From NCBI RefSeq assembly GCF_030063455.1, contig NZ_JASITB010000001.1, forward strand, positions 186,001-250,000: a DNA stretch of 64,000 nt, written 5' to 3'. The translations under genes were made by a program, and so were the position numbers. This document shows, piece by piece, positions 3,770 to 27,316 of this stretch. The stretch comes from Cryobacterium sp. PH31-O1 (GTDB lineage Bacteria > Actinomycetota > Actinomycetes > Actinomycetales > Microbacteriaceae). Position 1 is the first letter of the stretch, and each line of letters opens with the position of its first letter. The notes under the pieces are model-generated. The model was not told the DNA's origin. It saw only the letters and a list, made by a program, of their open reading frames with translations, and did not search any database.

Positions 3770-5263
3770 CTACGGGCGTGAAAAGTCCTCGGCCAGTCGA
3801 AGCAGCGCTCGAACGGACACGCCGGTCGGTCCGGTTGCCGTGAATCCCCAGCCGGCTCCGGAGTTCTGGGCCGGTCCGGCGATGTCGAGGTGAGCCCACG
3901 GAATCGTCTGCCCGGCGGCATCCGTTCCGATGAATTCCCGCAGAAAGACCCCGGCGAGGAGCATCCCGCCGGCTGTGCTGCCAATCTTCGCGTTTGCGAT
4001 GTCGGCGACGTCTGAATTGAGGGTGGCGCGCAGCTCGTCCGGGAACGGCATTGGCCAGGCAGCCTCGCCGACCGCGGCGCTGGCCGCGAGCACCTGCTGC
4101 ACGAGAACGTCATCGCCCATCGTGCCGAAATAACGGTTGCCGAGGGCGACCACCTGAGCTCCGGTCAGGGTCGCGACGTCGACGATGGCGTCGGGGTGTT
4201 CCTCGGCCGCGGCGACGAGGCCGTCGGCGAGTACGAGGCGACCCTCGGCATCCGTGTTGAGCACTTCGACGGTTCGGCCACCGCGCATTCGAAGCACGTC
4301 ATTGGGTCGAATAGCCGAACCCGACGGCATGTTCTCGGCGATGCACATCCACGCGGTGATGCGCACCGGCAGCTTGAGCCGGGCAGCGGCGACGACCACG
4401 GCGAGTACCGTGGCTGCACCGGTCATGTCGTATTTCATGCCGACCATCGATGCCGGTGGTTTGAGGGAGAGTCCGCCGGTGTCGAAGGTGATGCCTTTGC
4501 CGACGAGGGCGAGGTGCTTGACGGCCTCGGCCGGGGAATAGCTGAGCTTGACCAGGCGCGGCGGTCGGGTGGATCCGGCTCCGACGCCGACGATGCCGCC
4601 GAACCCGTCGGCGGCGAGCTCGTGTTCATCCCAGACGGTCACCTGGAGCGGCAGGTCGCGCGCGGCCAGGATCGCCAGGTCGGCGAGCGACGCCGGGTAA
4701 AGGTCGAGCGGCGGCATGTTCACGAGGTCCTTGACCAGGCGGATCGCCTCGGCGCTGGCCAGGGCGCGGTCCACAGCGGATGCCGCCGGAGTCGTGCTGT
4801 GCACGACGACGCTGTGGGCTGGCAGCTTCGCGTCGGCGAGTGAACTGTGACGGTAGGTCGTATAGGAGTAGCCGCCGAGGGCAGCACCCTCGAGCACAGC
4901 CTCCACCTGAGCGGCGTCGGTCAGCGGAATTGCGAAGGCAACCGAGGCGGCACCGGTCAGTTGGCGTACGGCTGAACCCGCCGCGTGGCGGAGGGTGTCG
5001 GTGCTGACCTGCCGTCCGAGCCCGACGATGGCGATCCCGCGCGGGGTCCCGACATCGGCCACCAGACGCACCACCTCATCACGCGCGCCGGTCGCGTTCA
5101 GCAGCGGTAGTTGAGCCGCCACCGACGAGATCAGGGCCTCACCGAGCGTGACGTCGGCGAGCAGCCGCGCTCCATCATCCGTTTGGAGCGCAGCGAGGAT
5201 GAGAACGTCGGCGGCAGAGGCCCGCGCGGACTCGGTGGACAGGGACAGTGTGGGAACAGTCAT
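3770..5263 (-). CDS. pepA: Cytosolic leucyl aminopeptidase, M17 family
   Basis: A 497-residue di-metal aminopeptidase that removes N-terminal residues from peptides; family members work as cytosolic hexamers. The catalytic C-terminal half has the M17 signature NTDAEGRLVLAD and the metal/substrate lysine segment GKGITFDTGGLSLKP. The N-terminal third is the less conserved M17 N-domain. The ATG at 5263 leaves a 129-bp divergent spacer to the PAC2 gene, so the promoter of the pepA-lpdA-sucB unit probably lies there; lpdA follows after about 100 bp. Confidence 0.95.
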   Translation of the reverse strand: MTVPTLSLSTESARASAADVLILAALQTDDGARLLADVTLGEALISSVAAQLPLLNATGARDEVVRLVADVGTPRGIAIVGLGRQVSTDTLRHAAGSAVRQLTGAASVAFAIPLTDAAQVEAVLEGAALGGYSYTTYRHSSLADAKLPAHSVVVHSTTPAASAVDRALASAEAIRLVKDLVNMPPLDLYPASLADLAILAARDLPLQVTVWDEHELAADGFGGIVGVGAGSTRPPRLVKLSYSPAEAVKHLALVGKGITFDTGGLSLKPPASMVGMKYDMTGAATVLAVVVAAARLKLPVRITAWMCIAENMPSGSAIRPNDVLRMRGGRTVEVLNTDAEGRLVLADGLVAAAEEHPDAIVDVATLTGAQVVALGNRYFGTMGDDVLVQQVLAASAAVGEAAWPMPFPDELRATLNSDVADIANAKIGSTAGGMLLAGVFLREFIGTDAAGQTIPWAHLDIAGPAQNSGAGWGFTATGPTGVSVRALLRLAEDFSRP

Positions 5264-7772: not shown

Positions 7773-7923
7773 TTCCTAGGACCCGTTCTGGTCCGGGGCA
7801 CGCTGATTTCGTTTCAGTGTGGGCATCCCGGGACTTGACATGGGTCCAAGTTCTGCCCAAAAACGCTTCTGGCTCCTTTCTGGCTTCCAGAAGCAGGTAA
7901 GACTCCGCATGAGAGGTGTTCGA

Positions 7924-9204
<1,281 letters not shown>

Positions 9205-9238: not shown

Positions 9239-10525
9239 GTGCACTTCGTGAGCTCCCTTCGGTACGCTCCCGCGATTCTCGTCGGACGGGCCGTTAGGGT
9301 GCTGGCGCGGTGGCGCAAGCCGGGCGGCGGCTCCGCCATACCCGGGGTCGTCGTCAATCGCATCGCCCCCGGCTTTCTCGCCACGACCCTCAACGGGTTC
9401 CCGCTCGGGCTCGTGATCGTCACGGGATCCAGCGGCAAGTCAACGACGACGAAAATGCTCGTCGCGGTTCTACGAGCCCACGGCCTGAACGTCTTCACCA
9501 ACCAGTCGACGGCGAACATCAGCCAGGGTCTGACCAGCGCCCTCCTGGAGCGGGTTAACCTGTCCGGGCGGATCGCCGGCGACGTCGCCGTGCTCGAAAT
9601 GGATGAAGGACACGGCGCGTTGATCGCCGAATCGCTGACTCCTCGCGTCGTCGCCCTCACCAACGTCATGGTGGACCAGATCGACCGGTTCCACGACTCC
9701 GAGATGGTCGCCGCCCTGCTCGCTAAGATCGCTGCGCGCGCCACGGAGACGGTCGTACTCAACGCCGACGACCGTTACCTCGCCGATCTCGGCTCCAGCC
9801 TTGACGCCACCGTGCGGGTTGCCCGCTACGGGGTGACCGCGGCAGTGCTCGGCCAGTATCCCCGCGGGCTGGGTTACGCCGACACCGCAGCGAATCGACT
9901 GCCGGCCGGCACAGGCCTTCAGCTGACCCGAGTGGTGGGTCGTGACGCCGACGTACAGTTCCCTACGGGCGACCGCAGCATCCGTCTGCCGGCGCGGGGC
10001 ATCCACTATGCCGTCGATGCTGTGACCGCGTTGAGCACGGCCCAGGCAACCCTTGGCGAAAGCTTCAGTCCCTCCGTGGCCTGTGCGTCACTGTCGGCCA
10101 TGCCAGCCGTTTTCGGTCGCGGCGAGGTCGTCACTGTTCGTGGTAAAACCATTGAGTTCGTGCTCGTGCAAAACCCGTCCAGCTTTCAACTCAACGTTGA
10201 CAGCCTCGAGGCCGGCACCGAGCAAATTCTGATGATCATCGGATCCGATGTTCGGGACCCATCGTACTTCTGGCCGGTGGATACCTCCGGCCTGGGTCAC
10301 GTACTCATCGCGTCGGGCCTGAAGGCGCACGACATCGCCCTGCAGCTCGCCTACGACAACGTTGCAGTGGAACGCATCGAACCCGATGTGCCGACGGCCC
10401 TCGACGCGTTCCTGGCCCTGCCCGATCCCGTGTCCGGGGTGAAAACCATCATCTTCTCTGCCGACGGCATGCGTCGCACCCGCGCCCACCTCGGCCTCGT
10501 CTCCAACGCTGAGGATCCGGAATGA
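9239..10525 (+). CDS. murT: MurT-like Mur ligase homologue lacking the zinc ribbon
   Basis: MurT is the ligase subunit of the MurT-GatD lipid II isoglutaminyl synthase: it phosphorylates the alpha-carboxyl of D-Glu2 in lipid II, which ammonia from GatD then amidates. The 428-residue frame has the Mur-ligase P-loop (TGSSGKSTTTKML, about 62-74), an ATP/Mg segment (EMDEGHG), the NADDRY motif and the C-terminal DUF1727 region. Oddities: the Cys4 zinc ribbon that canonical MurT carries after NADD is absent (the only cysteine is C282), and the C-terminal segment that carries the triad-completing Asp reads FWPVD. GTG at 9239 is the chosen start (GTG at 9248 is possible); no strong ribosome site. It overlaps the gatD homologue by 4 bases. 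Activity as a canonical amidation subunit is doubtful. Confidence 0.85.
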   Translation: MHFVSSLRYAPAILVGRAVRVLARWRKPGGGSAIPGVVVNRIAPGFLATTLNGFPLGLVIVTGSSGKSTTTKMLVAVLRAHGLNVFTNQSTANISQGLTSALLERVNLSGRIAGDVAVLEMDEGHGALIAESLTPRVVALTNVMVDQIDRFHDSEMVAALLAKIAARATETVVLNADDRYLADLGSSLDATVRVARYGVTAAVLGQYPRGLGYADTAANRLPAGTGLQLTRVVGRDADVQFPTGDRSIRLPARGIHYAVDAVTALSTAQATLGESFSPSVACASLSAMPAVFGRGEVVTVRGKTIEFVLVQNPSSFQLNVDSLEAGTEQILMIIGSDVRDPSYFWPVDTSGLGHVLIASGLKAHDIALQLAYDNVAVERIEPDVPTALDAFLALPDPVSGVKTIIFSADGMRRTRAHLGLVSNAEDPE

Positions 10526-11313
10526 CCGCCACGTCCCTGGGGCGACCGTTCACGGTCGTCTCGCTGCTGCCTCGCCTGCTCGACACCAACGGTGATGCCG
10601 GAAACGCCCGGGTGCTCGCCCAGCGCATGCGCTGGAGCGGCCACGACGCCCAGGTTGTCGATGTGCACTCGCGCGCCGATCTGCCCGGGCAGGTCGACGC
10701 CGTTTCGATCGGTTCAGGAACGGACGCTGCGCTCCTGCCGGCCCGAGATGGGCTGCGCACTCTGGTCGAAGAACTCCGCGTCTGGTCTAACAACGGGGTT
10801 CCCATCCTGGCCGTCGGGACCGGTTGGGAATTGCTGAGCTGGGGCGTCGACCTGGCCGACGGCAGCGTAGTGGAGGGCCTCGGGCTCGTTGCCGGCCATG
10901 CTGTGCCCCGGGCGACCCGAGCCACCGATGACATTATCGTCGCCTCGAAGTATGGGCGGCTGATCGGATTCGAGAACCACGCCCGTGACTATGTCGGCGC
11001 CGAAGCCAGTCCGCTCGGACGAGTCGTCCACGGCACAGGAAACGGCGACCAGGCAACTGGTCCCCAGATCGAAGGGCTGACCATGGGCGAGGTGTTCTGC
11101 ACCCACCTGCACGGTCCGGTTCTGGCGCGCAATCCCGGCCTCGCCGACCATCTGCTGCTGGCAGCATTCAGTCGTCACGGACTCGAGTATTCCCGCGGTG
11201 CCTTGGCGGTCAGCGTCGATGCGACCGCACAGGCCGCACGCAATCAGGTTGCTGTTCGCTTAGGCCAGAGCGCCGAATACCCCAACGCGGGCAACGAGAA
11301 ACCGCGCAGGTAG
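10522..11313 (+). CDS. gatD: GatD-like class I glutamine amidotransferase homologue without the catalytic cysteine
   Basis: GatD is the glutaminase partner of MurT. The 263-residue protein aligns along its length with GatD: start of the fold TVVSLLPRLLDTNGDAGNA, the region VDAVSIGSGTDAAL, the nucleophile-elbow segment, GFENHARDYVG, and THLHGPVLARNP with the catalytic histidine (H197). The nucleophile position, normally CGGYQ in LAICGGYQ-type elbows, is AVGTGWELL, so the cysteine is Gly99 (codon GGG, 10816-10818). The GGGxDxxQ-type loop is also altered (GSGTDAAL). The only cysteine, C193, is next to the histidine, not at the elbow. ATGA overlap with the murT homologue shows tight coupling. It should not hydrolyse glutamine by the known mechanism; a structural or new role is inferred. 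Confidence 0.87.
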   Translation: MTATSLGRPFTVVSLLPRLLDTNGDAGNARVLAQRMRWSGHDAQVVDVHSRADLPGQVDAVSIGSGTDAALLPARDGLRTLVEELRVWSNNGVPILAVGTGWELLSWGVDLADGSVVEGLGLVAGHAVPRATRATDDIIVASKYGRLIGFENHARDYVGAEASPLGRVVHGTGNGDQATGPQIEGLTMGEVFCTHLHGPVLARNPGLADHLLLAAFSRHGLEYSRGALAVSVDATAQAARNQVAVRLGQSAEYPNAGNEKPRR

Positions 11314-11619: not shown

Positions 11620-11796
11620 ATTCTCCTCCTCCAGACTGAATTGCATGAACTCTATTCACTAATGTAAGCACGCCGGAGGACCAATGACGAGATGAACGGC
11701 CGGTATTTCGCTTACCGCGTAGACGTGGGCGGCCGGGTGTCGACCACCAACCAGCAAGCCGGCGCAAAAGATCACCGGTCGCGGCCGGTATTCTTG

Positions 11797-13881
11797 ATGG
11801 TTGTGAGCTCCGACTATTCCGCCCGCCACCTGTCAGTCCTCGAGGGACTGGAGGCAGTGCGCAAACGCCCCGGCATGTACATCGGTTCCACCGACTCGCG
11901 CGGTTTGATGCACTGCCTGTGGGAGATCATCGACAACTCCGTCGATGAGGCCCTGGGCGGACACGGCGCGAGAATCCAGATTGAGCTTCACCCCGACCAG
12001 AGCGTCGAAGTGCGCGACACGGCTCGCGGGATCCCGGTCGACATCGAGCCCAAGACCGGACTGACCGGCGTCGAGGTCGTGTTCACCAAGCTGCACGCGG
12101 GCGGAAAATTCGGTAGCGGGTCCTACGCCGCGTCCGGCGGGCTGCACGGGGTGGGGGCATCCGTTGTCAACGCCCTGTCCGAGCGCCTCGACGTCGAGGT
12201 CGATCGTGACGGCAAGACCTGGGCCATGTCCTTCCACCGCGGCGAGCCAGGCCTGTTCGCCGATTCTGGGGAGAAGAGCCCCGACGCGCCCTTTACGCCG
12301 TTCGAAAGCCAGAGCGAACTGCGGGTGATCGGCAAGGTCAAACGCGGCGTCACCGGCACCCGAATCCGCTATTGGGCCGATCGCCAGATCTTCACCAAGG
12401 GCGCCACCTTCCAAACCGACGACGTGCTGAACCGAGCCCGCCAGACGGCCTTCCTCGTCCCCGGACTGGCCATAGAGGTGGCCGACCGACGAACAGAGGA
12501 GCCGGTCACGAGCCTGTTCCAGTTCGACGGCGGTATTTCCGAGTTCGTCGAACACCTCGCGACGGATGCCCCGATCACCGACACCTGGCGGTTGACCGGC
12601 AGCGGCACGTTCAGTGAGACGGTCCCCGTGCTGACCGACAAGGGTGCCATGGTGCCGACCGAGCTCGTTCGTGACTGCCAGGTCGACATCGCCCTGCGCT
12701 GGGGCACCGGCTACGACACGATCGCGCAGAGCTTCGTTAACATCATCGCCACCCCTAAGGGCGGTACCCACCAAGCCGGATTCGATGCCGGATTGCTGAA
12801 GTTTCTGCGAGGGCAAGTGGAGTTGAACGCCCGCCGCCTCAAGGTCGGCAGTGACAAGCTCGACAAGGACGACGTGATGGCCGGGCTCACCGCCGTGCTC
12901 ACCGTGCGCCTGCCCGAACCCCAGTTCGAGGGGCAGACCAAGGAGGTACTTGGCACTCCGGCGGTACGCGCGATCGTCGCAAACGTCGTCGCCACGGCCA
13001 TGGCCGAGCGCTACGCCTCAACGAAACGCGACGACAAGACGCAGTCAGCTTTGCTGCTCGACAAGATCGTCGCCGAGATGAAATCGCGCATCTCCGCCCG
13101 GGCCCACAAAGAGACCCAGCGGCGCAAGAATGCTCTGGAAAGTTCATCCCTGCCGGCGAAGCTCGTCGATTGCCGCAGTAACGACGTCTCCACGAGCGAG
13201 CTGTTCATTGTCGAGGGGGACTCGGCCCTCGGTACCGCCAAGCTCGCCCGCGACAGTGAGCATCAGGCGCTGCTACCGATCCGCGGCAAAATTCTCAACG
13301 TGCAGAAGGCGTCCGTCGCCGACATGCTCTCCAACACCGAGTGCGCCTCGATCATCCAGGTGATCGGAGCCGGCTCCGGCCGCAGCTTCGACCTGTCGGC
13401 AGCCCGTTACGGCAAGGTCATCATCATGAGCGACGCCGATGTCGACGGCGCCCACATCCGCACCCTGCTCCTCACACTGTTCTTCCGCTACATGCGACCG
13501 ATGATCACCGAGGGCCGTGTCTTCGCCGCCGTTCCACCGCTGCACCGGGTCGTCGTCATGAACCCGGGCAGCAAACCCAACGAGACCATCTACACCTACT
13601 CGGAGACAGAACTCCATTCGGTGCTGAGCGCGCTAGAGAAGAAGAACCGCCGCTACCAGGACCCAATCCAGCGCTACAAGGGTCTCGGTGAAATGGATGC
13701 CGACCAGCTCGCAACCACAACCATGGAACGTGCCCACCGCACGCTGCGGCGGGTACGCGTCGACGACGCCGAGTCCGCCGGAAAGGTGTTCGAACTCCTG
13801 ATGGGTAATGACGTGGCCCCCCGCAAGGAGTTCATCATCGACAGCTCCGACACGCTCTCTCGGGACCGCATCGACGTCTAG
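11797..13881 (+). CDS. parE: Type IIA DNA topoisomerase, subunit B (ParE/GyrB-like)
   Basis: The ATPase/TOPRIM subunit of a second type IIA topoisomerase. The 694-residue protein has the GHKL ATPase Bergerat motifs (EIIDNSVDEALGG, DTARGIPVD, SGGLHGVGASVVNAL) in the first 220 residues, the transducer domain, and the TOPRIM domain with EGDSALGTAKLARDS, PIRGKILNVQKAS and the metal-binding SDADVDGAH. The usual DNGRGIP box reads DTARGIP. These features match the actinobacterial ParE-like paralogue rather than oriC-linked GyrB. Start chosen at ATG 11797; no clear ribosome site, and GTG 11803 is an alternative. It converges on the partner parC with only 27 bp between stops. Confidence 0.93.
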   Translation: MVVSSDYSARHLSVLEGLEAVRKRPGMYIGSTDSRGLMHCLWEIIDNSVDEALGGHGARIQIELHPDQSVEVRDTARGIPVDIEPKTGLTGVEVVFTKLHAGGKFGSGSYAASGGLHGVGASVVNALSERLDVEVDRDGKTWAMSFHRGEPGLFADSGEKSPDAPFTPFESQSELRVIGKVKRGVTGTRIRYWADRQIFTKGATFQTDDVLNRARQTAFLVPGLAIEVADRRTEEPVTSLFQFDGGISEFVEHLATDAPITDTWRLTGSGTFSETVPVLTDKGAMVPTELVRDCQVDIALRWGTGYDTIAQSFVNIIATPKGGTHQAGFDAGLLKFLRGQVELNARRLKVGSDKLDKDDVMAGLTAVLTVRLPEPQFEGQTKEVLGTPAVRAIVANVVATAMAERYASTKRDDKTQSALLLDKIVAEMKSRISARAHKETQRRKNALESSSLPAKLVDCRSNDVSTSELFIVEGDSALGTAKLARDSEHQALLPIRGKILNVQKASVADMLSNTECASIIQVIGAGSGRSFDLSAARYGKVIIMSDADVDGAHIRTLLLTLFFRYMRPMITEGRVFAAVPPLHRVVVMNPGSKPNETIYTYSETELHSVLSALEKKNRRYQDPIQRYKGLGEMDADQLATTTMERAHRTLRRVRVDDAESAGKVFELLMGNDVAPRKEFIIDSSDTLSRDRIDV

Positions 13882-17737: not shown

Positions 17738-18331
17738 TCAGACCGGGTACTGGCGGCGCTTGACCTGCGGCTTGGGCAGACGCATGGGCCGCAGCTGCAG
17801 CGCGCGCATGGCCGCATACCAGCGCACCCGTTCTGCCTTGTCAGCCCCGAACTTGGCTTCGATCTTCTTGGTGAGGATGAAACCGAGCACAACGCAGTCG
17901 ACGACAGCGAAGATAAAGAAGGCCCAGAGCGCAATGATGGACACGCCGGCGACACTAGGAACCGTGGTGAGCAGGATGACCAGGAACATGACCGGAATCA
18001 TCAGCTCGCCCACGTTGAACCGTGCGTCGACGTAGTCGCGGGCGTACCGCTTCTGCAGGCCGCGTTCACGAAGCGGCAGGTACTTGTCGACACCGGCGGC
18101 CATGCCGGCCCTCGCCACATCGCGGGCGGCGGTGGACTTGGCACGCGCCTGCTTGGCGGCGAGCTTACGGTCGTCCGGAACCAGCGGGCGCTTGTTCGCC
18201 GCTTCCTGTTTCTTGCGGGTGGGGGTCGCCTGACCCTTACCCGCGTTGTGCGTGAGACCGAGACGTGCTGCGGTCTCGTCGGAACTTTCAATCGACGGCT
18301 GGGCGTCGGGGTCTACGGGAGGCTTGGCCAC
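17738..18331 (-). CDS. DUF3043 family membrane protein
   Basis: A 197-residue actinobacterial protein of unknown function. A basic, Ala/Lys-rich N-terminal half (KKQEAANKRPLVPDDRK region) leads to the conserved KYLPLRERG and RYARDYVDARFN segment, then two membrane helices (about 115-165) and a basic C-terminus. This is the DUF3043 pattern. The GTG at 18331 was chosen because AAGGA lies just upstream; an upstream TTG would add five residues. It is divergent from the M20 peptidase with a 38-bp spacer. Confidence 0.88.
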   Translation of the reverse strand: MAKPPVDPDAQPSIESSDETAARLGLTHNAGKGQATPTRKKQEAANKRPLVPDDRKLAAKQARAKSTAARDVARAGMAAGVDKYLPLRERGLQKRYARDYVDARFNVGELMIPVMFLVILLTTVPSVAGVSIIALWAFFIFAVVDCVVLGFILTKKIEAKFGADKAERVRWYAAMRALQLRPMRLPKPQVKRRQYPV

Positions 18332-18369
18332 ATCAAATCCTTGCAATTGGGTGCCTTAAGATTACCCGT

Positions 18370-19818
18370 ATGACTGGTAACCCACAGACAAATTCCCGTT
18401 CCGACGGCGCAAAACTTGACCTCGCGGCCGATCCTGGCGCGCGCGATGCCCTCCGAACCGCGGTCGAACGGGGGCTCCCGAGCACGATCGCAGATCTCTG
18501 TGCGCTGGTGCGCATTCCCTCGGTGTCGTGGGCGGCGTTCGATCCTTCGCGGGTCGCCGCCAGCGCCGACGCCGTCGCCGCGCTCGTGCGCGAACTCGGC
18601 GTGTTTGAATCGGTCGAAATCGTGCAGGCCCGCATTCCGGGCGGCACCGAGCTTGGCCAGCCGGCGATCCTGGCGTCGCGCCCGGCCAGAAAGGGCCGTC
18701 CGACCGTTTTGCTCTACGCCCATCACGACGTACAGCCCCCCGGCCGAGATGAGGACTGGGAGTCGGACCCGTTCACACCAACCGTGCGCGGCGATCGCCT
18801 CTACGGGCGCGGCGCCGCCGACGACAAGGCCGGTGTCATGGCGCACGTCGCCTCCATTCGTGCCCTGGTCGCGGCCGTCGGCGCGGATTTCGATCTGGGA
18901 ATCGCCCTGTTCATCGAGGGGGAGGAGGAGTTCGGAAGTCGCTCCTTCGCGACTTTCCTCGACGAAAACCGTGAATCCCTGCGCGGCGATGTGATCGTCG
19001 TAGCCGACTCGAACAACTGGGACATAAACACGCCGGCCATCACCACCGCTCTGCGCGGCAACGTCACCCTGCGTTTGACGGTGCGCACTCTGGCCCATGC
19101 CTCGCACTCCGGCATGTTCGGGGGAGCGGTGCCCGACGCCATGCTCGCCACCATCAAGCTGCTGGCCACTCTGTATCAGGATGATGGCTCGGTGGCCGTG
19201 GCAGGTCTCACCAGCATCGATGTCCCTACCCCCGAGTACTCTGAAGCACAGTTGCGCGCGGAGACGGGGTTGTTGCCCGGCGTCACACCGATCGGCCACG
19301 GCTCCATCCTCAGCCGGATCTGGTCGCAGCCCGCCCTGACTATCACCGGCATTGACGCGCCTACCGTGGACAACGCGTCCAACACGCTCACACCGTCGGT
19401 CAGCGTTCGCGTCAGCACGCGCATCGCCCCCGGCCAATCGGCGGTCGAGGCCGCCACGGCGATCGAGACCCATCTGCGTGAGAATGCACCATTCGGCGCC
19501 GTTGTCGAAATCGACGATGTAGACACCGGCGAGCCGTTCCTCGTCGACACCAGCGGGTGGGCCGTCACCGAGGCTCGATCTGCCATGACCGCTGCCTGGG
19601 GCGTGCCGCCGATCGACATCGGTGTCGGCGGGTCAATCCCGTTCATCGCCGACCTGGTGCGGGTCTTTCCGACCGCTCAGATTCTGGTCACCGGAGTGGA
19701 GGATCCGGATTCCCGGGCGCACAGTCCGAACGAGTCCCTCCACCTCGGCGTTTTCAAACGCGCGGTCCTGAGCGAGGCCTTCCTGCTCGGCAGCCTGAAC
19801 GAACGCGTCGAGCCTTAG
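18370..19818 (+). CDS. M20 family metallopeptidase (dipeptidase-like)
   Basis: A 482-residue zinc peptidase of the M20 family. The N-terminal catalytic domain shows the first zinc motif YAHHDVQPPG, then YGRGAADDKAG, and the catalytic/zinc glutamates in IEGEEEFGS. A dimerisation domain follows (about 200-330), and the final zinc histidine lies in RAHSPNESL. These features match cytosolic dipeptidases and related amidohydrolases; the substrate is not fixed by sequence. A second M20 gene of a different subgroup lies at 57563-58930. Confidence 0.88.
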   Translation: MTGNPQTNSRSDGAKLDLAADPGARDALRTAVERGLPSTIADLCALVRIPSVSWAAFDPSRVAASADAVAALVRELGVFESVEIVQARIPGGTELGQPAILASRPARKGRPTVLLYAHHDVQPPGRDEDWESDPFTPTVRGDRLYGRGAADDKAGVMAHVASIRALVAAVGADFDLGIALFIEGEEEFGSRSFATFLDENRESLRGDVIVVADSNNWDINTPAITTALRGNVTLRLTVRTLAHASHSGMFGGAVPDAMLATIKLLATLYQDDGSVAVAGLTSIDVPTPEYSEAQLRAETGLLPGVTPIGHGSILSRIWSQPALTITGIDAPTVDNASNTLTPSVSVRVSTRIAPGQSAVEAATAIETHLRENAPFGAVVEIDDVDTGEPFLVDTSGWAVTEARSAMTAAWGVPPIDIGVGGSIPFIADLVRVFPTAQILVTGVEDPDSRAHSPNESLHLGVFKRAVLSEAFLLGSLNERVEP

Positions 19819-21498: not shown

Positions 21499-23229
21499 AT
21501 GACCACGACCATCGCACCCGCCCCGCCACGTCCGGCAGCACCGGTCTCCACGTCGGCGGAACGCAAGGGCAACGTACTTGTCCGGTGGATTACCTCCACC
21601 GACCACAAGGTCATCGGGTACATGTACCTGATCACGTCCTTCATCTACTTCTGCATCGGCGGCGTCATGGCGCTGATCATTAGGGCCCAGTTGTTCGCGC
21701 CGGGCCTCGATGTGGTGCAGACCAAGGAGCAGTACAACCAACTCTTCACGATGCACGGCACGATCATGCTCCTGATGTTTGCTACGCCGCTCTTCTTCGG
21801 CTTTGCAAACTTCCTGGTTCCGCTGCAGATTGGCGCCCCCGACGTTGCGTTCCCGCGGCTGAACGCCCTCGCCTACTGGTTCTTCAACTTCGGCAGCCTG
21901 ATCGCCGTTTCTGGGTTCCTTACCCCGCAGGGTGCGGCCTCCTTTGGCTGGTTCGCCTACCAGCCCCTTGCCAGCACAACGTTCTCGCCTGGAGTCGGCG
22001 GAAACCTGTGGATGGTCGGCCTCGGACTCTCCGGTTTCGGAACCATCCTCGGCTCCGTGAACTTCATCACTACGATCATCACCATGCGCGCCCCTGGCAT
22101 GACGATGTGGCGCATGCCGATCTTCACCTGGAACTCGCTGATCACGTCGCTGCTCGCTCTCATGGTCTTCCCCGTGCTGGCCGCTGCTATGCTCGCCGCA
22201 GCATCCGACCGCATCTTTGGTTCGCACATTTACGATCCGGCCAACGGTGGCGCCATCCTCTGGCAGCACCTGTTCTGGTTCTTCGGCCACCCTGAGGTAT
22301 ACATCATCGCGTTGCCGTTCTTCGGTATCGTCTCCGAGGTCTTCCCGGTCTTTAGCCGCAAGCCGATGTTCGGCTACAAGACTCTGGTCTACGCGACCAT
22401 CTCCATCGCGGCGCTGTCTATCTCGGTGTGGGCGCACCACATGTATGTCACCGGCTCTGTACTGCTGCCGTTTTTCTCCCTCATGACGATGCTGATCGCG
22501 GTCCCGACCGGGGTGAAGATCTTCAACTGGATCGGCACCATGTGGCGCGGCTCCATTACTTTCGAAACTCCCATGATCTGGGCCATCGGTTTCCTCGTGA
22601 CCTTCACTTTTGGTGGTCTGACCGGAGTCATCCTGGCCTCACCGCCGCTCGACTTCCACGTGTCCGACACCTACTTCGTCGTCGCGCACTTCCACTACGT
22701 TGTCTTCGGCACCGTCGTCTTCGCTATGTTCAGCGGATTCTACTTTTGGTGGCCCAAATGGACCGGCAAGATGCTCAACGAAAGCCTTGGCAAGTGGCAC
22801 TTCTGGCTCCTGTTCATCGGTTTCCACACCACCTTCCTGATCCAGCACTGGCTGGGAGTCATGGGAATGCCGCGACGCTACGCGACGTATTCGCCCGAGG
22901 ACGGTTTCACCTGGATGAACCAGGTGTCCACCATCGGTTCCATGATCCTCGCCGTGTCAATGATCCCGTTCTTCCTGAACGTGTACATCACGGCTCGGAA
23001 GGCTCCGCTGGTGACCGTGAACGACCCGTGGGGCTATGGTTCCTCGCTCGAGTGGGCGACGTCCTGCCCGCCGCCGCGCCACAACTTCACTTCTATTCCG
23101 CGCATCCGCTCCGAGCGTCCCGCCTTCGACCTGAACCACCCCGAAGCCGGCGTACCCGTCGGTATCGGCCCCGGTAAGGATGCGCCCGACGCTGCGGTCT
23201 ACGACATCGACTCGAATCAGGTTAAGTAA
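21499..23229 (+). CDS. ctaD: Cytochrome c oxidase subunit I (aa3 type)
   Basis: The catalytic subunit with heme a and the heme a3-CuB site where oxygen is reduced. The 576-residue protein has 12 membrane helices. Visible signatures include the heme-a histidine segment [12 protein letters not shown], the CuB His-Tyr segment [12 protein letters not shown], the two-histidine WAHHMYVTG and the final heme-ligand region [10 protein letters not shown]. It starts 3 bp after ctaC and runs directly into ctaF. Confidence 0.97.
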
Positions 23230-23652
23230 ATGAAGACCAACGTCAACATCCTCTGGGTCCTCACCGCTTTCTTCGGAATTGTCACAGTCGTCTATGTTGC
23301 CTGGAACCTGCTCGACCCTAATCACGGAAAGATCGAGTGGGCCGGCACGTTCATGCTCGCCCTGTCGGCGCTGCTCGTGGCTTTCATAGCGTTCTATCTC
23401 GACAAGGTACGCGGCGCCCAGGGCGGCGAGCTGCCCGAGGACCGCCTCGATGGCAACGTCGATGACGGTGACCCCGAAATGGGGTTCTTTAGCCCGTGGA
23501 GCTGGTGGCCGATCTTCCTCGCAGCGTCCACCGCGCTGCTGTTCCTCGGCCTGGCTGTTGGCATCTGGATCTGCTTCATCGGGCTTGGTCTCGGTCTGGT
23601 CGCCCTCACCGGGTGGGTCTACGAGTACTACCGGGGCTTGTTCGCCCGCTAG
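23230..23652 (+). CDS. ctaF: Actinobacterial cytochrome c oxidase subunit IV
   Basis: A 140-residue membrane protein of the CtaF type found only in actinobacterial aa3 oxidases. Four hydrophobic segments lie around residues 8-28, 36-57, 90-108 and 110-130, with an acidic loop (PEDRLDGNVDDGDPEMG) in the middle and the conserved FFSPWSWWP before the third. Its ATG follows the ctaD stop with no gap, so translation is probably coupled. Confidence 0.94.
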   Translation: MKTNVNILWVLTAFFGIVTVVYVAWNLLDPNHGKIEWAGTFMLALSALLVAFIAFYLDKVRGAQGGELPEDRLDGNVDDGDPEMGFFSPWSWWPIFLAASTALLFLGLAVGIWICFIGLGLGLVALTGWVYEYYRGLFAR

Positions 23653-23666
23653 ACGTTTTCGCTAGT

Positions 23667-23700
23667 CGATACCGATCTCCCTTCGGGGAGGTCGGTATCG
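23667..23700. terminator. Hairpin terminator between ctaF and the RlmA gene
   Basis: A 15-bp stem CGATACCGATCTCCC / GGGAGGTCGGTATCG (one G-T pair) closes on the stable loop TTCG. It lies between the convergent ctaF and methyltransferase genes; there is no strong T tract, but the stem is strong on either strand. Confidence 0.8.
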
Positions 23701-23747
23701 TCGGTTAACGGAGTTCCTGAGCCTGATCAGCGCCTGATCAGGACCGG

Positions 23748-24572
23748 TCAGCGGCGACGGAACCCGAAGATGTCGAAGGCAACTGTGACCTGCCGATCAC
23801 AACCGACGGAGTCGACTGCAGCGGCACTGTCGGTGTGGTGCGCGGACGGGCCCATGCCGATGAGCGATGTCACCTCAGTCATCGACAACCGCACTGTGCG
23901 CTCAAGCTGGTCGTGCGACTCCAGGCTGAACCAGGCGGCAAGGCTCGTTGTCAGGTGTGCAGCCTTGTCAGCCTGCATTTGCACGGCAAGGCCCGACTCC
24001 CGCAGCTGCCACAGGTGGGACGGCTGCGGCACGACGACCAGCAGCAGGCCATCGGCCCGAAGCACACGGTGGAACTCTGCAGCGTTACGCGGTGCGAAAA
24101 CGTTCAGAATAATGTCGGCGGTCCCATCGCGCAGGGGGAGGGGCGACCAGACATCCGCTACCAGCCCGTCAACGCGATCGTCCGGCCGGATCGTGCGACC
24201 GACGGCGACGGGGGAGAGGTCCATGCCCAAGGCGCGCACGCCGCCTGATGGGGGCAGCGCCGCGCCCAGGTAGTAGCCGGTGCCGCACCCGACATCGAGG
24301 AGGCGCCGGGGGGATTCACCGGCGACACGGGTGCGGATGGCGTCGCGGAGCGGTTCGTACCATCCGGCGTCAAGAAACCGATCACGAGCATCGAGCATGG
24401 CCGCACTATCGCCGATGAACTTGCGCGGCCCGGTGAGCAGGTTGACGAATCCCCGCTTGTTGACGTCGAAGGAATGCCCACGTTCACACCCCAAAAGAAG
24501 ATGACCGCTGGGATGCAAGGGGAGAAAACAGTTCGGGCACCGAAGCCACTCCGATAACGTCTGGAGTGACAT
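23748..24572 (-). CDS. 23S rRNA (guanine-N1)-methyltransferase, RlmA/TlrB type
   Basis: A 274-residue SAM-dependent methyltransferase. The N-terminal zinc module has C12, C15, C29 and H33 (LRCPNC...GCERGHSFD), typical of RlmA family enzymes that methylate N1 of G745/G748 in 23S rRNA. It is followed by the conserved GFVNLL and GDSAAMLDARDRFLDAGWYEPL and the SAM motif LLDVGCGTGYYLG. In Gram-positive relatives (TlrB) the target is G748 and the modification can affect mycinosyl-macrolide susceptibility; which guanine is modified here cannot be told. It lies 24 bp downstream of qcrB on the same strand and may be co-transcribed. Confidence 0.85.
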   Translation of the reverse strand: MSLQTLSEWLRCPNCFLPLHPSGHLLLGCERGHSFDVNKRGFVNLLTGPRKFIGDSAAMLDARDRFLDAGWYEPLRDAIRTRVAGESPRRLLDVGCGTGYYLGAALPPSGGVRALGMDLSPVAVGRTIRPDDRVDGLVADVWSPLPLRDGTADIILNVFAPRNAAEFHRVLRADGLLLVVVPQPSHLWQLRESGLAVQMQADKAAHLTTSLAAWFSLESHDQLERTVRLSMTEVTSLIGMGPSAHHTDSAAAVDSVGCDRQVTVAFDIFGFRRR

Positions 24573-24596
24573 CGATGCCCGTTCTGTTGGTTTCTG

Positions 24597-26246
24597 CTAC
24601 TTGTCGGTAATCTCCGCGGGGTGATCGCCGTGGGCGTGATCAAGCTCGGGCTGCGTGACCGGGGTGATCCGATCTTCAAAGAACCAGCGAGACAGGCCGG
24701 CACGAACCTTCTCGGTCGCACCAATCTTGCCTTGGGCGTTGGGACGCAGCATGAGCGGCTTGAAGTCACTGTAGCTGACCAGCTTCCAACGCTCGTACTC
24801 GTCCACGGGCTGGTGCACCTCAACGAATTCGCCACCGGGAAGCCGAACGATACGGCCGGACTCGTAACCGTGCAGAACGATTTCGCGGTCCTTCTTCTGC
24901 AGGGCCAAGCAGACGCGTTTGGCGATGAAGAACGCGAGGAACGGGCCGAGCAGGGTAGTCGCCTGAAGGGTGTGGATGACCCCCTCCATGGTGAGGTGGA
25001 AGTGCGTTGCCATGATGTCCGATGATGCTGCTGCCCACAGCGACGCATAGAACGTGACGCCAGCTGCGCCGATCGCGGTACGAGTCGGTGCGTTGCGCGG
25101 GCGATCGAGAACGTGGTGCTCACGCTTGTCGCCGGTGATCCAGGCTTCGATGAAGGGGTAGATCATGACGGTAACGATGAACAAGCCGACAACGATCAGT
25201 ACCACGAGGATATTGAGCGAGTAGGTGTGGTTCAGCCAGACGAACTCCCAACCGGTCGGAATGAGCCGCATGGCACCGTCGGCGAAGCCGATGTACCAGT
25301 CGGGCTGGGTGCCGGCCGACACCGGTGAGGGGTCGTACGGGCCGTAATTCCAGATCGGGTTGATCGTGAAGAAGGAAGCGATGAGCATGACGACACCGAA
25401 CACGATGAAGAAGAAGCCACCGGCCTTGGCGGCGTAGACCGGGAGCACCGGGTAGCCGACAACATTCTGATTGGTGTGTCCCGCGGCCGGGTACTGGGTG
25501 TGCTTGTGCACGACGACGAACAAGAGGTGCATGGCGATCAAGGCGACAATGATGGCCGGCAATAAGAGGATATGCAGCGAGTACAACCGCCCGACAATGT
25601 CCGTGCCGGGAAATTCCCCACCGAACAGCAGGAAGGAGACCCAGGTGCCCACGACCGGGATTCCCTTGATCAGCCCGTCGATGATGCGCAGGCCGTTTCC
25701 GGAGAGCAGGTCGTCGGGGAGGGAGTATCCAGTGAAGCCTTCAGCCATGGCCAGGATGAAGAGGACGAAGCCAATGACCCAGTTGAGCTCTCGCGGCTTG
25801 CGGAACGCACCCGTGAAATAGATGCGCAGCATGTGCAGGCCGATGGCGGCTACGAACAGCAGGGCAGCCCAGTGGTGAACCTGACGCATGAGCAGGCCAC
25901 CGCGAATGTCGAACGATATGTCCATCGTCGAAGACATCGCGGCCGACATCGGGATTCCCTTGAGCGGCGCATAGGAGCCGTCGTAGACGACTTCGGCCAT
26001 GGAAGCCTGGAAGAAAAACGTCAGGAAAGAACCCGACAGCAAAATGATGACGAAGCTGTACAGTGCCACCTCGCCGAGGAGGAAGGACCAGTGATCGGGG
26101 AAGATTTTGCGACCAAGTTCTTTGACCGCACCTGAAATACTGGTGCGTTCGTCAATGTAATTGGCAGCGGATGCGGTGAAGCCTCCGGATTTCTTCACCC
26201 CGACTGCTTGATCCTCAGTGGATTCGCGGGTGGTTATCGTTGTCAT
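24597..26246 (-). CDS. qcrB: Cytochrome bc1 complex cytochrome b subunit
   Basis: The quinol-oxidising cytochrome b of the actinobacterial bc1-aa3 supercomplex. The 549-residue membrane protein has the heme-ligand helices (VHHWAALLFVAAIGLHMLR and LLLPAIIVALIAMHLLFV), the hydrophobic core of eight or more helices, and a long cytoplasmic C-terminal tail (about 430-549) typical of actinobacterial QcrB, with the PGGEFVEVHQPV segment. It overlaps qcrA by four bases (ATGA). Last respiratory gene in the leftward ctaE-qcrC-qcrA-qcrB unit. Confidence 0.96.
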   Translation of the reverse strand: MTTITTRESTEDQAVGVKKSGGFTASAANYIDERTSISGAVKELGRKIFPDHWSFLLGEVALYSFVIILLSGSFLTFFFQASMAEVVYDGSYAPLKGIPMSAAMSSTMDISFDIRGGLLMRQVHHWAALLFVAAIGLHMLRIYFTGAFRKPRELNWVIGFVLFILAMAEGFTGYSLPDDLLSGNGLRIIDGLIKGIPVVGTWVSFLLFGGEFPGTDIVGRLYSLHILLLPAIIVALIAMHLLFVVVHKHTQYPAAGHTNQNVVGYPVLPVYAAKAGGFFFIVFGVVMLIASFFTINPIWNYGPYDPSPVSAGTQPDWYIGFADGAMRLIPTGWEFVWLNHTYSLNILVVLIVVGLFIVTVMIYPFIEAWITGDKREHHVLDRPRNAPTRTAIGAAGVTFYASLWAAASSDIMATHFHLTMEGVIHTLQATTLLGPFLAFFIAKRVCLALQKKDREIVLHGYESGRIVRLPGGEFVEVHQPVDEYERWKLVSYSDFKPLMLRPNAQGKIGATEKVRAGLSRWFFEDRITPVTQPELDHAHGDHPAEITDK

Positions 26247-27316
26247 GCTCGCTCCCAGAAACTCGGGCCGACTGGTTCAGTGAAATCGCTCTGCGCGATC
26301 AGGTAGCCCTCAGCGTCCACGGCGATCGGGAGCTGGGGTAGTGCCCGTTTGGCCGGTCCGAAGATGACCTTGCAGTGGTTCTCAACGTCGAACTGCGACT
26401 GGTGGCACGGGCAAAGCAGGTGGTGCGTGTGCTGTTCGTAGAGCGCGACCGGGCACCCGACATGGGTACAGATCTTAGAATAGGCTACGATCCCGTCATA
26501 CGACCAGGACTTGCGGTCCTCTTCTTCGACGAGGTCATCCGGGTCCATGCGAATGAGCAGAACGGCGGCTTTCGCCTTTTCTTCCAGACGACCGTGGCCC
26601 ATCTCGGCCAAGCCCTCTGGAATGACGTGGAACGACGATCCGAGCGTGACATCCGCTGCCTTGATCGGGGTGCCACTGGGGTCCATGGTCAGGCGAACGC
26701 CCTTCTTCCACAGGGTTTCGTTGAGGAGAGCAACCGGGTCCTGGTCCATCGGGCCAAGACCACGAAACAATACGACGGCCGGGAGTGGAAAGACGACGAG
26801 GGCACCGATGAGGCTGTTGCGAATGAGCGTACGGCGACCGAAGCCCGATTCTTCATTGGCCTGCTGGAAGATCTCCACGGCGCGGGCCCGCACTGGCTCG
26901 GTTCCACGAACGGGGTGACGTTCGTCGACACCTTCATGATCACTCATGAGGGCCTTACCCCAGTGCACGGCTCCGATACCGATGGCGAGCAGCGCGAGAC
27001 TGAGACCGAGGCCGATGAAGAGGTTGTTCAAGCGAACAGAACCGGGATCTTCGGCGACGATCGGAAAGGCCATGTAGGCAGCGATGGCAAAAACGCTACC
27101 CACGATGGAGACGTAAAACAGCGTGTAAACGGCACGCTCAGCCTTGCGCTCTTCCTTGTGGTCAAGGTCGGTGATGCGCGGACGGTGCGGCGGGAATCCC
27201 GGATTGACCAGGGCATCCCGTGTAACGACGGCTGTGCTTGCGGCGGATGTCGCGAGCTGCGCGCCAGGCGAGTCGGCGGCGGTTACGTGCTCCGCGCCGT
27301 TATCGTCCTTGGCCAT
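26243..27316 (-). CDS. qcrA: Rieske iron-sulfur subunit of cytochrome bc1
   Basis: Transfers electrons from quinol to cytochrome cc through a 2Fe-2S cluster. The 357-residue protein has three membrane helices, two near residues 65-85 and 98-118 and one near 166-186 (the actinobacterial arrangement), and a C-terminal Rieske domain with CTHVGC (ligands C283, H285) and CPCHQS (ligands C302, H305); C288 and C304 should form the stabilising disulfide. Overlaps qcrB by four bases and lies 95 bp after qcrC. Confidence 0.96.
   Translation of the reverse strand: MAKDDNGAEHVTAADSPGAQLATSAASTAVVTRDALVNPGFPPHRPRITDLDHKEERKAERAVYTLFYVSIVGSVFAIAAYMAFPIVAEDPGSVRLNNLFIGLGLSLALLAIGIGAVHWGKALMSDHEGVDERHPVRGTEPVRARAVEIFQQANEESGFGRRTLIRNSLIGALVVFPLPAVVLFRGLGPMDQDPVALLNETLWKKGVRLTMDPSGTPIKAADVTLGSSFHVIPEGLAEMGHGRLEEKAKAAVLLIRMDPDDLVEEEDRKSWSYDGIVAYSKICTHVGCPVALYEQHTHHLLCPCHQSQFDVENHCKVIFGPAKRALPQLPIAVDAEGYLIAQSDFTEPVGPSFWERA

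Follow-up and report, generated by a model that had tools for sequence, protein, structure and literature searches.

Within the window, the whole stretch of 64,000 nucleotides that was analysed, positions 9239 to 11313 hold a MurT-like and a GatD-like gene that overlap by 4 nt (10522–10525) and lie between genes for an RpoD-type sigma factor and a ParE/GyrB-type topoisomerase subunit, an interval that we refer to as the slot. The window's family (f1) is by inference Microbacteriaceae, as it holds genomes assigned to Rhodoluna lacicola and Aurantimicrobium minutum. Residue counts refer to a 193-row alignment, from which 25 of 218 loci with no MurT above 60 bits or no GatD match were left out; clade I/II denotes the f1 rows that include the window. 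The features of the locus are as follows.

7819–9204, + strand: RpoD-type sigma factor (open reading frame), left border of the slot; rpoD adjoins 74 of the 79 Cys-less f1 pairs
9239–10525, + strand: MurT-like Mur ligase, GTG start at 9239 or 9248 (Pfam and PDB matches)
9422–9451, + strand: MurT ATP P-loop TGSSGKSTTT, from the sequence; Lys64 in 55/55 clade I/II rows
9515–9517, + strand: Asn90, equivalent to S. pneumoniae MurT Asn85 (acceptor carboxylate; role from excerpts of PMC6085368); 55/55 clade I/II and 95/95 canonical rows
9602–9607, + strand: Asp119-Glu120, equivalent to S. pneumoniae Asp112-Glu113 (Mg2+; role from excerpts of PMC6085368); 55/55 clade I/II rows
9671–9673, + strand: Val142, at the position of the canonical gate Arg (S. 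pneumoniae Arg135); Arg in 95/95 canonical and 1/55 clade I/II rows
10160–10201, + strand: MurT C-terminal loop VLVQNPSSFQLNVD, altered relative to canonical KNPxGFR, with Gln308 for the KNP Lys (alignment rows)
10256–10258, + strand: Asp337, equivalent to S. aureus MurT Asp349; 55/55 clade I/II rows
10522–11313, + strand: GatD-like protein with a class I amidotransferase fold and no catalytic Cys (Pfam, pairwise alignment, AlphaFold)
10816–10818, + strand: Gly99, replacing the catalytic Cys (S. aureus Cys94; pairwise and 193-row alignments)
11110–11112, + strand: His197, equivalent to S. aureus His189, retained (pairwise and 193-row alignments)
11692–13881, + strand: ParE/GyrB-type topoisomerase subunit, right border of the slot (Pfam DNA_gyraseB and relatives)

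The pair shares with the lipid II isoglutaminyl synthase MurT-GatD of S. aureus and S. pneumoniae its arrangement as a gene pair, its folds, the P-loop and the acceptor-binding residues, and Pfam recognizes Mur_ligase_M (55.7 bits), MurT_C (28.3 bits, cut-off 25) and GATase_3 (48.6 bits). It differs from the synthase in having Gly for the catalytic Cys, no ribbon (the corresponding region of the window MurT contains no CxxC) and changes in the C-terminal loop and at the positions of the gate Arg and the KNP Lys, and it misses the NCBIfam equivalog cut-offs widely (MurT 85.9 against 800; GatD 71.2 against 400 and 100.8 against 450). Specifically, ILAVGTGWELL of the window GatD aligns with LTICGGYQFL of S. 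aureus GatD, which places Gly99 at Cys94, and His197 sits in the motif THLHGP. The AlphaFold model of MurT (mean pLDDT 90.7) has MurT chains as its top PDB fold matches, and that of GatD (mean pLDDT 93.9) best matches S. aureus GatD with a TM score of 0.81, both as predicted structures. The amino-acid-adding Mur ligases work by acyl-phosphate chemistry. MurC, MurD, MurE, MurF and the archaeal pMur ligases have the fold in common with the window protein, but their chains rank after MurT in the fold search; the best matches in both sequence and fold are to MurT, the GatD partner is kept, and Pfam gives the window protein no N-terminal Mur domain.

Both genes are under purifying selection, beyond what chance decay would leave: in comparisons with four loci from its own genus, NG86 dN/dS is 0.07–0.14 for MurT and 0.10–0.26 for GatD, at dS of 0.7–1.2. 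The first-pass annotation of this DNA had described a pair that keeps its ATP site, has lost its ammonia supply and is nevertheless maintained intact, and each part of that description holds, with Gly99 in place of Cys, the P-loop and tested acceptor residues kept, and both subunits under constraint.

The window's genome has a single MurT_C match, and profile searches of it found neither a slot-type CofE nor an ATPgrasp_ST gene. Alanine racemase gives two full matches (224 and 223 bits) and one shorter match (60 bits); as judged by eye, one of these racemases adjoins tsaE and glmS and another a LysE-like exporter. We infer that this set of ligases and racemases would suit a bridge that consists of a single residue, a D-amino acid. 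Other genes of the window are ordinary, among them an M17 aminopeptidase, an M20 peptidase, and cytochrome oxidase with a bc complex (3770–5260, 18265–19815, 21499–27313).

Loss of the glutaminase Cys and retention of the ligase site

A PF08353 profile search of 396 genomes of the order matched 142, with 11 f1 genomes scoring below 40 bits and 130 of the 131 others scoring at least 61 bits (G315 is a part match at 29.9). The 92 sequence-checked f1 pairs, one row per genome plus one second copy, comprise 74 Cys-less pairs beside rpoD, one Cys-less pair beside parE only, and 17 whose fetched flank contains neither of the two genes (about 1.5 kb for some, so that position elsewhere is judged only within it), of which 13 have the Cys and four do not. 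All 75 sequence-checked f1 pairs that adjoin rpoD or parE lack the Cys. In the other families of the order the Cys is present in 61 of 63 loci (62 genomes), the two exceptions (L069 and L070) being a MurT-GatD fusion in one frame in which Cys is replaced by Arg, His by Gln and the Mg-binding Asp by Arg. A broad contig scan gave at least 47 loci, few of them Cys-less.

A tree of 186 MurT sequences, rooted at the midpoint, requires the Cys state to change three times, each time as a loss: in clade I/II of f1 (55 tips, support 1.0), in clade III/IV (36 tips, support 0.994) and in the MurT-GatD fusion. Clade III/IV combines f1 members with Clostridia (L122, L123, L142, L144) and the family of Merdibacter massiliensis, by inference Erysipelotrichaceae, where 21 of 30 loci are Cys-less and nine have the Cys. 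The association with group B walls drawn in the first-pass annotation has to be read with these pairs in mind, as Cys-less pairs occur also in Clostridia, in the Merdibacter family and, fused, in another family. The annotation had also treated a ribbon-less MurT as a marker of the degenerate pair, which we reject: in other families of the order, many pairs that have the Cys lack the ribbon as well, so loss of the ribbon says nothing about the glutaminase, and clade III has the ribbon without the Cys.

Several individual loci deserve mention. Some genomes carry several MurT matches (G498 with L059 and L092, G792, G840, G768), and in G498 the Cys is missing from two pairs, of which one is distant from rpoD. 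In L118 and L119 a CofE-like gene directly precedes a Cys-less MurT-GatD without the Mg Asp, a fourth type, followed in L119 by two racemase-like genes. The MurT match of L292 (G405) contains one in-frame TAA, and its GatD aligns with a gap in the His column. The Cys-less locus L120 (G399) was dropped from the f1 counts because its stretch has 44% GC and may be a contaminant.

In clade I/II, Lys64, Asn90, Asp119, Glu120, Asp143, Arg147, Arg291 and Asp337 are retained in all 55 rows, Asn309 in 53 and Pro310 in 47. The KNP Lys position, Lys308 in 95/95 canonical rows, is Lys in 21 and Gln in 34 of the 55 (the window included), and loop position 312 is Ser in 54/55 rows, against Gly in 90/95 canonical ones. 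The clade has its own signature residues in Asn316 and His253 (both 55/55) and Asp257 (54/55). With the KNP Lys mostly gone and the gate Arg lost, the clade I/II site is not fully canonical. According to excerpts of PMC6113224, the substitutions C94G and C94S in S. aureus GatD abolish amidation, and D349N in MurT severely reduces activity; clade I/II retains the D349 equivalent despite its broken triad. In clade III, Lys64, Asn90, Asp119 and Glu120 are present in 8/8 f1 and 25/26 Firmicutes rows (one gap), D349 is Asn in 7/8 f1 and 15/26 Firmicutes rows and Asp in four Firmicutes rows, and GatD mostly has THNA or TGNA, with the His mostly replaced by Ile, Leu or Thr. The Mg-binding Asp has been lost from clade IV and from the fusion, and hence the ligase site is not retained in every Cys-less pair.

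An exchangeable ligase slot between rpoD and parE

Our strongest result concerns the rpoD-parE interval, which is a slot where one ligase is exchanged for another. Among 398 f1 genomes, MurT is found at E ≤ 1e-20 in 307 and a CofE-like gene at E ≤ 5.4e-31 in 69; at these cut-offs one genome (G519) has both and 23 have neither, which makes the two near-exclusive alternatives. The MurT search scored at most four candidates per genome, and its cut-off pools Cys-less with Cys-bearing pairs. A profile re-test of 80 of the weaker-scoring genomes covered 47 of the 68 CofE-like genomes (of 69) that lack MurT at 1e-20: 45 gave nothing better than 1e-13 and two belong to clade IV. As those two have a diverged MurT beside CofE, 66 genomes remain with CofE and no MurT match. 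The contingency P value of 2.4e-55 is descriptive only, since genomes are not independent. In 13 genera (g2, g3, g112, g114, g148, g156, g157, g171, g172, g173, g175, g176 and g178) both alternatives occur in different species, the Cys-less pair being sequence-checked. In G519 itself the two are on separate contigs (L289, L300), the pair being Cys-less and the CofE, which adjoins MurJ, diverged.

CofE is the F420-0:gamma-glutamyl ligase (PF01996), of a family unrelated to MurT, whose relatives fill the slot in these other members of f1. Twenty-nine loci downstream of rpoD were fetched, mostly from genomes without a MurT match (L219–L247), and 22 of them hold the CofE-like gene (46.6 bits for the copy in L233), accompanied by an ATP-grasp gene (PF14397, 148 bits) in 20 and by a racemase-like gene in 13. 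L219 is a 23rd CofE locus, masked by an overlapping match and placed by the genome-wide CofE search. Its stretch downstream of rpoD (L219:268-6547) holds CofE together with MurJ, the flippase for lipid II, and with two ATP-grasp genes and a racemase-like gene, the parE side lying beyond the fetched stretch. The remaining fetched loci are nearly empty (L237, L241, L243), hold other genes (L240, L242) or served as a MurT locus for comparison (L247), and three further CofE loci (L302–L304) all have the ATP-grasp gene. As far as the sometimes short flanks reach, ATP-grasp accompanies one and a racemase-like gene eight of 27 clade I/II loci beside rpoD, and ATP-grasp four of eight clade III loci. 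Racemase-like genes adjoin either alternative, MurT-GatD or CofE.

The 23 genomes with neither alternative are ten of genus g4, eight of g158, and G399, G411, G438, G448 and G497. Both sequence-checked members of g158 have a pair with the Cys. In g4 (L106, L107, L240, L242) neither alternative was found, and two members carry a pair with the Cys outside the slot; a group B wall in g4 would require yet another enzyme. Little lies in the slot of G411, G438, G446, G448 and G727. Besides this nearly empty slot, G446 and G727 (L243, L299) have a Cys-bearing pair outside it. G676 (L242) likewise has such a pair outside the slot, which here spans about 2.9 kb and contains none of the genes sought. 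An initial view that the pair is simply absent in many members was revised, as the slot is then usually filled by CofE-like and other genes. Because CofE so often replaces it, the pair is not a universal group B enzyme.

Proposed role in starting the group B cross-bridge

In group B walls, the alpha-carboxyl of D-Glu carries the interpeptide bridge. We propose a reading that, judged from the sequences, is on balance probable, namely that the Cys-less pair is an amino-acid ligase that acts on the alpha-carboxyl of D-Glu2 and starts this bridge from an exchangeable slot. Specifically, the pair would be a MurT-GatD relative that no longer produces ammonia from glutamine. MurT would phosphorylate the alpha-carboxyl of D-Glu2 in the peptidoglycan precursor (probably lipid II), the acyl phosphate would be attacked by a bridge amino acid rather than by ammonia, and GatD would persist as a structural subunit, so that MurT-GatD would thereby start the bridge. 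The rpoD-parE interval would be the family's slot for this step, filled in some lineages by a Cys-less pair of either of two separate origins and in others by a CofE-like ligase, usually together with ATP-grasp and in some cases also with a racemase-like gene. Where an organism's bridge consists of D-Dab, D-Dab itself is the nucleophile that we predict. An amino-acid ligase is argued for because the glutaminase was lost repeatedly, the ligase half is under selection and the slot is taken by another ligase family, and D-Glu2 is pointed to by the position of the group B bridge on D-Glu together with the retained acceptor residue. The ATP-grasp D-Asp ligase of lactic acid bacteria is likewise a dedicated bridge ligase; it differs in activating the bridge amino acid and in acting on the Lys side, not on D-Glu.

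Organisms with known walls provide two anchors. The genome G423 (3,063,596 bp), which we take to be Clavibacter nebraskensis, has the slot order rpoD, MurT, Cys-less GatD, parE, an arrangement matched by G714 (L084) from that genus. A single D-Dab bridge is given for C. michiganensis in excerpts of PMC9603630. G403, assigned to R. lacicola MWH-Ta8 (1,430,433 bp), has nothing but the Cys-less pair in its slot, and the wall of this strain, as excerpted from PMC4156110, contains Gly-D-Glu and D-Ala-D-Dab and is typed B2beta (B10), group B. As assigned, R. lacicola and Clavibacter are consistent with the Cys-less pair as a putative group B bridge enzyme. G420, assigned to Pontimonas salivibrio, has the Cys-less pair and a racemase-like gene, and in G407, presumably Tropheryma whipplei, the GatD Cys is Ser and a racemase-like gene lies nearby. 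The 2018 Pontimonas genome paper (excerpts of PMC6106888) found no pentaglycine-bridge enzymes and took the crosslinks as direct. The genome assigned to Aurantimicrobium minutum (G446; PMC4929513) is the one noted above for its empty slot and Cys pair elsewhere, and G480, assigned to Gulosibacter sp. ACHW.36C (from excerpts of PMC12243537), has CofE and ATP-grasp in the slot (L239); no wall type for either genus was found in the portions of the literature searched. The Agromyces aureus wall is B2gamma according to excerpts of PMC5217419. Within Microbacterium the bridge type differs between species, with D-Orn, L-Lys or Dab (excerpts of PMC10757982).

A broader reading, which we put forward tentatively as possible but short of probable, is that the rpoD-parE interval of Microbacteriaceae is a group B cross-bridge locus served by three interchangeable ligase systems (the two separately derived glutaminase-dead MurT-GatD pairs, and the CofE-like ligase with its ATP-grasp partner), and that the content of the slot, one or two ligases and a racemase or none, would spell the bridge. 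MurT-GatD alone would denote a single D-Dab, CofE with ATP-grasp a two-residue bridge, and a racemase D-diamino acids, with replacement of the three systems extending to within genera.

Two other activities have to be weighed, both of which we regard as unlikely. The pair might still amidate D-Glu2 with free ammonia, GatD being a mere scaffold; indeed, S. aureus MurT/GatD uses ammonia directly at pH 8.5 given GatD (excerpts of PMC6085368), and the window GatD retains both its fold and His197. However, the slot holds no Cys-bearing pair that we have seen, its alternative occupants are CofE-like genes that mostly adjoin ATP-grasp genes, and such families join carboxylates to amines, the C-terminal loop and gate Arg are altered in clade I/II, and the carboxyl to be amidated is the same one that carries the bridge in group B walls. 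Alternatively, the pair might be an amino-acid ligase for another wall or lipid-linked substrate, or for a later bridge residue, rather than for D-Glu2, as a retained P-loop and Mur fold and a slot with several ligases and racemases would allow; but the equivalent of Asn85, the canonical acceptor-carboxylate residue, is invariant, and the single D-Dab of C. michiganensis needs one ligation to D-Glu where the Clavibacter slot offers this pair only. That the pair is degenerate and non-catalytic, with a regulatory or structural role, is very improbable: the GatD motif is variable and its His also missing in part, but MurT has seven invariant ligase residues over 55 rows at dN/dS of 0.07–0.14, and other ligases replace the pair repeatedly.

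Several observations count against the bridge-ligase reading itself. The link from the pair to a bridge of known type is made by no more than two anchors, through organism names that are assigned and, for Clavibacter, presumed; 23 of the 398 f1 genomes have neither alternative by the cut-offs used; the KNP Lys and gate Arg are mostly lost in clade I/II, and the Mg-binding Asp in clade IV and the fusion; D349 is retained in clade I/II; and the keeping of GatD is not accounted for. The first-pass annotation had proposed the pair as the group B bridge ligase on D-Glu and predicted its co-occurrence with group B walls. What stands is that at least two separate clades lost the Cys and retained ligase residues, that the pair lies in a slot in which it is exchanged for other ligases, and that R. 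lacicola and Clavibacter fit; the proposal was too broad, with 66 of 398 f1 genomes having CofE and no MurT match and 23 neither.

Its statement that the enzyme starting B-type bridges is not established agrees with the titles and abstract beginnings searched, which name none, and no paper among the best literature matches listed brings MurT, GatD and Microbacteriaceae together (subscription papers lay outside the scope of both searches). If the bridge-ligase reading is true, the pair would be the missing enzyme for the start of the group B bridge, the diversity of walls on which the family's taxonomy draws would be explained and a genomic predictor of wall type would be at hand, and the conversion of an ammonia-channelling synthase to an amino-acid ligase would have happened repeatedly.
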